64,000 nucleotides of DNA from Pukyongia salina (GTDB lineage: Bacteria > Bacteroidota > Bacteroidia > Flavobacteriales > Flavobacteriaceae), in NCBI RefSeq assembly GCF_002966125.1, contig NZ_CP027062.1, forward strand, positions 2,714,501 to 2,778,500. Reading direction: 5' to 3'. The notes below the pieces were generated by a model, which made no database searches, was not told the DNA's origin, and saw nothing but the letters and a program-made list of their open reading frames with translations. Made by a program: the position numbers and the translations under genes. Positions 23,756-24,840 of the stretch are shown here, piece after piece (positions within the stretch are counted from its first letter, which is position 1; each line of letters begins with the position of its first letter).

Positions 23756-24270
23756 CAAAACAGGGAAGCTTTGCTTCATCTCCCTGTGTCACCCTGAATT
23801 TGATTCAGGGTCTATTTCATACTTTACCAGGATTACGCTCGTACCTCGCGTGATCCTGATCGGGGAATGTTGCTCAGTGAAAGTCGGGGAAGCTTTGCTT
23901 CACCTCCTTCTGTCACCCTGAACTTGATTCAGGGTCTATTTCATACTTTACCAGGATTACGCTCGTACCTCGCGTGATCCTGATCGGGGAATGTTGCTCA
24001 ATGAAAGTCGGGGAAGCTTTGCTTCACCTCCTTCTGTCACTCTGAACTTGATTCAGGGTCTATTTCATTCCCAGGATTACGCTCGTACCTCGCGTGATCC
24101 TGATCGGGGAATGTTGCTCAATGAAAGTCGGGAAGCTTTGCTTCATCACCCTGTGTCACCCTGAACTTGATTCAGGGTCTATTTCATACTTTACCAGGAT
24201 TACGCTCGTACCTCGCGTGATCCTGATCGGGGAATGTTGCTCAATGAAAGTCGGGAAGCTTTGCTTCCCT
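23756..24270. repeat. Tandem array of a roughly 120-bp mosaic unit with three palindromes
   Basis: Five copies (last one partial) of a 119-125-bp unit begin near 23763, 23888, 24012, 24131 and 24254. Each unit carries three hairpins in order: GAAGC-TTT-GCTTC; ACCCTGAA and TTCAGGGT around a 5-base loop; and AGGATTACGC and GCGTGATCCT around a 9-base loop. The third hairpin shares its arms with the 17-unit array near 21.3-22.2 kb. Copy 3 lacks a few bases between hairpins 2 and 3. The last copy ends in a perfect GGGAAGC-TTT-GCTTCCC palindrome. Another palindrome, TGAAGCAAGCTTCA, lies at 24296-24309. Short frames across this stretch are not credible genes. Confidence 0.9.
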
Positions 24271-24321: not shown

Positions 24322-24354
24322 TAAAAAAGTCGGACACTTTCTGTGTCCGACTTT
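24322..24354 (-). terminator. Terminator downstream of tRNA-Pro
   Basis: On the minus strand AAAGTCGGACAC pairs perfectly with GTGTCCGACTTT around a 5-base loop, followed by more T residues. It starts seven bases past the tRNA-Pro 3' end. Confidence 0.9.
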
Positions 24355-24360
24355 CATTGG

Positions 24361-24435
24361 TCGGGGTGGCAGGATTCGAACCTGCGACCTCCTGCTCCCA
24401 AAGCAGGCGCGATAACCGGGCTACGCTACACCCCG
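24361..24435 (-). tRNA. tRNA-Pro (anticodon TGG)
   Basis: The cloverleaf on the minus strand has acceptor CGGGGTG pairing with CACCCCG (discriminator A). The anticodon arm CCTGCTTTGGGAGCAGG has TGG in the loop, and the T arm is CAGGTTCGAATCCTG. No CCA is encoded. The 5' flank of 114 bases is duplicated upstream together with two degenerate tRNA-like copies. Confidence 0.95.
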
Positions 24436-24763
24436 AATTGGTTATCAATAATTCTTTATTTCAATCTCTTATCGATATTACCGGTTTAACCCTCGTAATA
24501 CCCAGAACGTTTTTCACTGTAAAGAATATATACAATCATACTCTTTCACTTGGGGTGGTCACGCCTTCAGCGTGACGACCTTCACGCCATAGGCGTGACT
24601 CGATAACCGGGCGGAGTCTATCCTGAACTTGACTCAGGGCTACACCCCGAATTGGTTATCAATAATTCTTTATTTCAATCTCTTGTCGATATTACCGGTT
24701 TAACCGTAGTAATACCCAGAACGTTTTTCACTGTAAAGAATATATACAATCATACTCTTTCAC
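24436..24763 (-). repeat. Tandem duplication of the tRNA-Pro 5' flank
   Basis: The 114 bases at 24436-24549 recur at 24650-24763 with only a few substitutions (for example CTTATCG versus CTTGTCG). Each copy ends at a tRNA-Pro-like element. The pattern is that of a tandem tRNA array in which only the 3'-most copy is a normal tRNA. A third copy retains only about 16 bases of the flank (24841-24856). Confidence 0.9.
24550..24649 (-). pseudogene. tRNA-Pro-derived tRNA-like element 1, three arms altered by palindromes
   Basis: The acceptor stem (CGGGGTG/CACCCCA on the minus strand) and parts of the D arm match tRNA-Pro at 24361-24435. In plus-strand order, the T arm is replaced by TCACGCCTTCAGCGTGA and the anticodon arm by TCACGCCATAGGCGTGA, each a perfect or near-perfect hairpin. 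The CGACCT between them is retained. The D-loop carries an insertion centred on CCTGAACTTGACTCAGG, which differs by one base from the second hairpin of the array at 23.8-24.3 kb. It cannot act as a normal tRNA because the anticodon and T-loop are gone. Confidence 0.8.
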
Positions 24764-24840
24764 TTGGGGTGGTCACGCCTTCAGCGTGACGACCTTCACG
24801 CCATAGGCGTGACGCTATAACCGGGCTACGCTACACCCCG
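24764..24840 (-). pseudogene. tRNA-Pro-derived tRNA-like element 2, anticodon and T arms replaced
   Basis: Compared with tRNA-Pro, the acceptor stem and whole D arm are intact. The T arm is TCACGCCTTCAGCGTGA (17 bases instead of 15) and the anticodon arm is TCACGCCATAGGCGTGA (17 instead of 17). The joining bases CGACCT and CGC are conserved. The result can still fold into a four-armed cloverleaf of 77 bases, but with no TGG anticodon and no GTTCGAATC T-loop. The two substituted hairpins share the stem TCACGC/GCGTGA. Whether the RNA is made or stable is unknown. Confidence 0.8.

Follow-up and report, generated by a model that had tools for sequence, protein, structure and literature searches.

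Palindrome-armed tRNA-Pro copies in Pukyongia salina are parts of small GIY-YIG nuclease elements at tRNA genes

What exchanges whole arms of a tRNA gene for palindromes? The question is posed by a locus of Pukyongia salina contained in the 64,000-nucleotide stretch analysed here (the window), in which an intact tRNA-Pro(TGG) gene is accompanied by two tandem copies whose T and anticodon arms have been replaced. Read along the minus strand, the locus runs from tRNA-Ser(GCT) through pseudo-tRNA copy 2, a broken open reading frame (ORF), pseudo-tRNA copy 1 and another broken ORF to the intact tRNA-Pro(TGG) and a terminator-like hairpin, with the following positions.

25028-24944, minus strand: tRNA-Ser(GCT), upstream end of the locus order
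24764-24840, minus strand: pseudo-tRNA-Pro copy 2, T arm and anticodon arm swapped, D arm native
24773-24789, minus strand: palindrome at the T-arm position of copy 2 (pattern search of the window)
24796-24812, minus strand: palindrome at the anticodon-arm position of copy 2 (pattern search of the window)
24651-24753, minus strand: broken GIY-YIG ORF of unit 2, internal deletion identical to unit 1 (tblastn, 80% identity over 30 aa, two stops)
24550-24650, minus strand: pseudo-tRNA-Pro copy 1, T arm and anticodon arm swapped, plus a D-arm insert
24559-24575, minus strand: palindrome at the T-arm position of copy 1 (pattern search of the window)
24582-24598, minus strand: palindrome at the anticodon-arm position of copy 1 (pattern search of the window)
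24613-24638, minus strand: D-arm insert of copy 1, hairpin CCTGAGTCAAGTTCAGG (minus strand), with a one-base variant in the element of genome G003
24437-24539, minus strand: broken GIY-YIG ORF of unit 1 (MIVYILYSEKRSGYYEG*TGNIDKRLK*RIIDNQ), aligned to the full G003 ORF (tblastn, 80% identity over 30 aa, two stops)
24361-24435, minus strand: intact tRNA-Pro(TGG) (ARAGORN; Rfam RF00005, 69.2 bits)
24326-24354, minus strand: terminator-like hairpin after the intact tRNA-Pro, a 12-bp perfect inverted repeat AAAGTCGGACAC / GTGTCCGACTTT followed by a minus-strand T run

The initial annotation of this DNA had placed an intact tRNA-Pro(TGG) next to two tandem tRNA-Pro-derived copies, and both observations hold: the former is recognised by ARAGORN and by Rfam (69 bits) at 24361-24435, while the latter, at 24764-24840 and 24550-24650, lie 214 bp apart in two tandem units of 214 bp that are 97% alike over 188 nt. 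The reported replacement of T arm and anticodon arm by palindromes in both copies can be read directly from the sequence, the swapped arms being TCACGCCTTCAGCGTGA and TCACGCCATAGGCGTGA in plus-strand reading. On the tRNA strand, the intact T arm CAGGTTCGAATCCTG and anticodon arm CCTGCTTTGGGAGCAGG give way in both copies to TCACGCTGAAGGCGTGA and TCACGCCTATGGCGTGA, and the joining bases are retained. Copy 1 does carry the extra D-arm hairpin ascribed to it, in the form of the insert at 24613-24638. The pattern TCACGCN{1,12}GCGTGA has four sites in the window, all in the pseudo-copies, where 0.01 would be expected. Since the whole 3.18-Mb genome contains only seven sites, these four included, the palindrome is not a dispersed genomic repeat. 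Elsewhere in the window (23800-24260) there is a tandem intergenic array with a unit of about 120-190 bp and hairpins TCACCCTGAACTTGATTCAGGGTC and CAGGATTACGCTCGTACCTCGCGTGATCCTG; the insert in the D arm of copy 1 looks like the CCTGAA..TTCAGG hairpin of this array.

The main point, overlooked by that annotation, is that the hairpins are part of a GIY-YIG nuclease element. Behind each pseudo-copy in the window lies the broken ORF of a GIY-YIG nuclease (MIVYILYSEKRSGYY...), that of unit 1 containing two in-frame stops and an internal deletion and running into tRNA-Pro. The two remnants have both the deletion and the stop codons in common when aligned to the full G003 ORF, and the deletion therefore predates the tandem duplication. 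As their ORFs are broken, the window's two element copies are dead; the intact tRNA-Pro(TGG) at 24361-24435, with which the array ends, is the host gene in its restored form. An unbroken form is present in G003, of the same genus, at another tRNA-Pro locus, and consists of a pseudo-tRNA, a GIY-YIG ORF of 79-81 codons and an intact tRNA-Pro, within which the last codons and the stop of the ORF lie. The G003 pseudo-tRNA has a D-arm insert, a native anticodon arm and TCACGCCTATGGCGTGA as its T arm.

The element ORF is identified by Pfam PF01541 (E=3.3e-12), and the best matches of its profile among solved structures are UPF0213 and SLX1. Residues Y4, Y15, R25, H29, E61 and K65 are conserved at 99-100% in 98 ORFs; family ORFs belong to the GIY-YIG nuclease superfamily by virtue of the domain and the catalytic Tyr, Tyr, Arg, His and Glu, the window copies being truncated. 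The median dN/dS of 0.185 indicates purifying selection. At tRNA-Arg(ACG) the window's own genome also contains a tandem array of three 307-bp units whose GIY-YIG ORFs are open (G000:C1:2033942-2034780; L056, L195) and whose tRNA copies carry the palindromes TCCGCCTGAGGCGGA and GCCCGCCTATGGCGGG. This array, intact and in the same genome, is the best place for studying the element. A further GIY-YIG ORF of that genome is found 124 nt beyond a same-strand tRNA-Asn(GTT) (G000:C1:1294600-1296400; L216), with no evident downstream pseudo-tRNA.

An ORF scan of 85,000 species genomes gave 80 loci with a related ORF, distributed among Flavobacteriaceae, Cytophagales, Chitinophagaceae and one Ignavibacteriota genome. 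At most of these loci a tRNA-Pro gene (TGG or GGG) begins at or just past the ORF end, and in the tRNA-Pro types the palindrome lies 34-50 nt ahead of the ORF. Within the tRNA-Pro(TGG) group every readable element (39/39) carries a palindrome in place of an arm, and in no case (0/39) is the native T arm kept, a count in which L173 was read by eye and which leaves aside L100 and L117, cut by a contig end. The T arm has become TCACGC..GCGTGA in 33 of the 39; the remaining six (L123, L135, L136, L138, L139 and L173) have a swapped anticodon arm and no T arm.

The boundaries of these exchanges are those of the arms: tRNA positions 52-66, CAGGTTCGAATCCTG, are replaced by TCACGC..GCGTGA, positions 29-45, CCTGCTTTGGGAGCAGG, by TCCCGCCTGAAGCGGGA, and positions 28-44 of tRNA-Ala, CTACGCTGGCAGCGTAG, by TCCCGATGCATCGGGA. 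The recurrence of identical exact-arm exchanges in relatives confirms the modular replacement of whole arms that had been proposed for the window copies. The nuclease tree requires at least four changes for anticodon-arm swaps and at least eight for D-arm swaps or inserts, so arms have been exchanged repeatedly. The possibility that hairpin-bearing forms at orthologous loci might turn out to be an unrelated repeat was also looked into, and the pseudo-copies of relatives are clearly tRNA-derived. Four of them (L091, L094, L097 and L125) are called tRNA-Pro by ARAGORN, a warning for annotation, where arm-swapped copies may thus pass as functional tRNAs.

The cloverleaf, which the initial annotation considered to be kept, fares less well. 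It is possible for copy 2 (-35.6 kcal/mol), but the minimum-energy fold of that copy is a single long hairpin (-41.4 kcal/mol), because its two hairpins are mutually complementary. As a general rule cloverleaf retention fails, since many relatives lack an arm or an acceptor strand and still have the hairpin. Cloverleaf mimicry as a general selected feature was rejected on these grounds, together with the fold of the window copy.

What is under selection is the hairpin form of the arm replacement itself. Across the arm-defined palindromes of 35 elements, 98% of cells are paired and there are 29 two-sided changes, compared with 7.0 in shuffles. The covariation score is 0.424 against 0.121 for shuffled sequences, with none of 500 shuffles as high and slid controls reaching at most 0.095; a single G-C pair close to the stem's top never varies. 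Selection of the 35 arms was by their flanks and by position in the tRNA, in part by eye; three of them are imperfect. These measures were preferred to a general scan of hairpins against shuffles, which is diluted by terminators in the regions of 3'-type elements.

Comparison between genomes provides empty and filled versions of the same sites. At its second tRNA-Pro locus (L053) the window's genome has, still empty, the site that is filled in G003 (L040); in G005 (L041/L042) this site is likewise occupied, and in G002 (L046) there is a remnant with no ORF. The window's tRNA-Ser/tRNA-Pro locus, for its part, is empty in G002 (L049) and G006 (L051), with the element present in G005 (L043). At filled sites the left flank is joined to the 5' end of the pseudo-tRNA and the right flank stays with the intact tRNA. 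Short ORF-less remnants upstream of tRNA-Pro were seen at five loci of the genus (L044, L045, L046, L047 and L048), each comprising the 5' part of the tRNA with an insert CCTTCGACTCCGC..GGCGTCGCTCAGGATAAACTCCG; they are probably MITE-like deletion derivatives of the element. Copies in one genome at different tRNA-Pro loci (L105/L106, L135/L138 and L107/L116) have ORFs 90-98% identical and unrelated flanks, which shows movement or conversion between tRNA-Pro loci. Mobility of the element is well supported.

Searches with a profile of the ORF found matches in 60 of 146 genomes of the order and, in Bacteroidota, in 101 of 296 genomes and 68 of 140 genera. The tRNA targets include Pro, Arg, Ala, Asp, Asn, Val, Met, Phe, Leu, His and Ser. 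Better-scoring ORFs adjoin a tRNA gene, on the same strand in all adjacent cases, with a chance adjacency of about 0.3%, and most weak-scoring ones have no nearby tRNA; scores were binned by the E-values of the local search, and some loci were fetched twice. In an independent set of the 24 best hits, nearly all outside the order, the ORF lies within 75 nt of a same-strand tRNA in 19. On the ORF tree, tRNA identity (16 states) changes 22 times as against 51 when shuffled, so that a nuclease lineage mostly keeps to a single tRNA.

Two layouts were found. In the 5'-type the pseudo-tRNA is followed by the ORF and then the intact tRNA; in the 3'-type the order is intact tRNA, terminator, ORF, pseudo-tRNA and a copy of the terminator. 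The part of the tRNA retained in the pseudo-copy is nearly always that on the side far from the ORF, the 5' part in 61 of 66 5'-types and the 3' part in 31 of 33 3'-types. Whole-arm swaps occur beyond tRNA-Pro, for example from TCTGCCTTCTAAGCAGA to TCCCGATTTCAATCGGGA in Arg, from CTACACTGGCAGTGTAG to CCCCGAAAGCTTTCGGGG in Ala and from CCTCGTTTACACCGAGG to TCCCGATTTTTATCGGGA in Val. Arrays of two to eight units are common; they multiply pseudo-tRNAs and ORFs, and those that were read retain about one intact tRNA.

The explanation that we favour, with moderate confidence, is a selfish, homing-like GIY-YIG element that would cut tRNA genes, regenerate the host tRNA and use the pseudo-tRNA, its cut arm replaced, as a homology arm. 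The window copies would then be the tRNA parts of tandem decayed elements, each built as a pseudo-tRNA with hairpin-swapped arm or arms, a GIY-YIG ORF of about 80 aa and an intact host tRNA. The nuclease would cut the cognate intact tRNA gene in the anticodon or T arm, whichever is swapped in its own pseudo-copy, and the break would be repaired from an element-bearing tRNA locus, one homology arm being the stretch of the pseudo-tRNA that lies away from the ORF and the other the opposite portion of the intact tRNA. The predicted product keeps one complete tRNA gene and gains a pseudo-tRNA and an ORF, as in the filled sites observed. With the cut-site arm replaced, the pseudo-copy would be protected from cutting and the intact tRNA would still be cuttable. 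If the intact tRNA of a filled site were cut and repaired from the pseudo-copy of the sister, an extra unit would result, and repeated rounds would produce [pseudo-tRNA-ORF]n-tRNA, with n pseudo-copies, n ORFs and one tRNA.

Several observations count against this homing-like scheme. The presumed target persists in the intact tRNA of a filled locus, so that insertion does not destroy the site, unlike classical intron homing. Loss of the target alone needs no palindrome, and the model leaves the palindromic form unexplained. The pseudo-copy of 3'-type elements still has its T arm, which means that the presumed cut site must differ between clades, and some D-arm changes are insertions, not replacements. 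Tandem arrays can also be obtained by plain unequal crossing over. A role of the hairpins in recombination insulation, through lowered homology between tRNA copies, was judged weak, as many elements retain about 50 nt of perfect homology.

The main rival to homing is a structure-guided nuclease, and both could act together. We put forward only tentatively the idea of a class of minimal selfish element, widespread in Bacteroidota, in which a hairpin-recognising GIY-YIG nuclease would exchange tRNA-gene arms for its own palindrome and leave behind an arm-swapped copy and a working tRNA. Y1 transposases act on REP or IS200 hairpins, and a comparable hairpin-guided transposition might be at work here, though we consider it rather unlikely: the palindrome would be the element end or a recognition structure, a GIY-YIG protein related to UPF0213/SLX1 would cut at hairpin bases in single-stranded or cruciform DNA, and tRNA arms would be targeted as hairpins too, one hairpin being exchanged for another. 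Such a process would account for the exchange of whole arms at their stem bases and for palindromicity held by compensatory change. It is also consistent with the presence of several hairpins of one stem type within a single pseudo-tRNA, with the position of SLX1 among the nearest solved structures, and with a stem type that follows the element group and not the tRNA (at Arg(tct), CCTGCC..GGCAGG in the 5'-type and TCCCGA..TCGGGA in the 3'-type). The elements, however, keep to their cognate tRNA genes and to one orientation, and tRNA identity follows the clade, which argues for specificity towards a sequence or a locus; within the element family no ORF flanked by hairpins turned up away from tRNAs, and no target-site signature was found.

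A function at the RNA level appears unlikely. The nuclease mRNA would here carry the pseudo-tRNA, made from the tRNA promoter, as a structured 5' leader or as a trailer, with arm replacement blocking processing, modification and charging of the pseudo-tRNA and the hairpin controlling stability or translation. Every adjacent element is on the tRNA strand, hence co-transcription is expected, and the place of the hairpin just ahead of the ORF in tRNA-Pro types would suit such a role. So would the position of the ORF stop codon, which lies within the downstream tRNA in 55 of 69 5'-type cases (e.g. L040:809-1048), so that RNase P processing would leave a stop-less message, possibly a built-in expression limiter of 5'-type elements. 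The swap is nevertheless present in 3'-types too, where the pseudo-copy stands downstream of the ORF with the 5' strand of its acceptor stem missing, and the cloverleaf is not the best fold of the window copies. That the nuclease might serve the host by amplifying tRNA genes, for instance against tRNA-cutting toxins or phage defences, is very unlikely: arrays at tRNA genes and the precedent of phage SegB speak for it, but it is the pseudo-tRNAs and ORFs that multiply, and the decay of copies and their uneven occurrence among congeners have a selfish look. Ordinary tRNA pseudogenes struck by palindromic repeats of a dispersed kind, next to an uninvolved ORF, are scarcely credible and were rejected, for despite the likeness of the copy 1 insert to dispersed repeats near 23800-24260 the TCACGC palindrome is not scattered through this genome and is conserved at the same arm beside a conserved ORF in many genera.

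Among known systems, phage T4/T6 SegB resembles the element in being a free-standing GIY-YIG nuclease gene beside tRNA genes (segB lies in a tRNA cluster). It cuts tRNA genes, with the motif RAWTSGAAC, and drives tandem amplification of tRNA and segB, with microhomology between the tRNA 5' end and the segB 3' end (PMC13096335). On the opposite strand this motif would, we infer, be T-loop sequence. It is matched by the T arm of the intact tRNA-Pro at 24373-24381, where the plus strand reads GATTCGAAC, and by neither window pseudo-copy; GATTCGAAC itself is likewise absent from both. The elements described here differ from SegB in their location in bacterial chromosomes, their units of about 214-390 bp with an ORF of about 80 aa, their palindrome-armed pseudo-tRNA and their many tRNA types, with one tRNA identity per clade. 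UPF0213/SLX1-like nucleases are of the same fold family; the element ORFs are set apart by sitting at tRNA genes, whereas the weak-scoring survey matches mostly do not. As with integrative elements at tRNA genes, insertion duplicates part of the tRNA and one full tRNA remains, but here the sole ORF in the unit is the GIY-YIG nuclease, with no tyrosine or serine integrase, both 5' and 3' configurations occur and the duplicated part has arm-swapped hairpins.

REP/RAYT and Rickettsia palindromic elements are small palindromes linked to a nuclease or transposase, or inserted in genes including RNA genes. In our case, by contrast, the palindrome replaces whole tRNA arms in a tRNA-bound GIY-YIG element, and assignment to REP/RAYT was rejected for want of a Y1 (HUH) domain and of dispersal of the palindrome. 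A classical intron or intein homing endonuclease does not fit an element beside which the intact tRNA is regenerated, and units of 214-390 bp are too short for a mobile group I intron; Rfam gave no intron match in the window, and the NCBIfam group I intron endonuclease model scored far below its cut-off. Empty and filled alleles and spread within genomes do appear to fit a free-standing homing endonuclease gene, a kind of gene defined by cutting alleles that lack it and so being copied into them. As to known anti-phage defence systems, the only PADLOC matches were weak and partial, to the GIY-YIG portion of PDC-S14. With regard to a vector, none was identified, as tblastn with the tRNA-Pro(TGG) ORF gave no match in phages and with the tRNA-Pro(GGG) ORF merely two weak ones in plasmids. 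No description of this tRNA/GIY-YIG element was found among open-licence PMC papers.

A family of probably selfish elements of less than 400 bp is hidden in the tRNA loci of about a third of the sampled Bacteroidota genomes, at many tRNA types, and would extend the phage case of a tRNA-gene-cutting, amplifying GIY-YIG nuclease to bacterial chromosomes. Its sequence evolution is unusual in that whole RNA arms are repeatedly exchanged for unrelated palindromes, with selection on pairing, and it offers many natural pairs of target and donor for the study of GIY-YIG specificity, immunity to self-cutting and array growth. Some arrangements fall outside the common layouts. Arrays of eight and seven GIY-YIG ORFs, respectively, occur at G072:C34:6300-10600 (L203) and G158:C1:541200-544700 (L223), in stretches where ARAGORN calls no tRNA. 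At G066:C1:263700-265300 (L233), a GIY-YIG ORF lies 197 nt downstream of a tmRNA gene, which is a possible non-tRNA target of the family.
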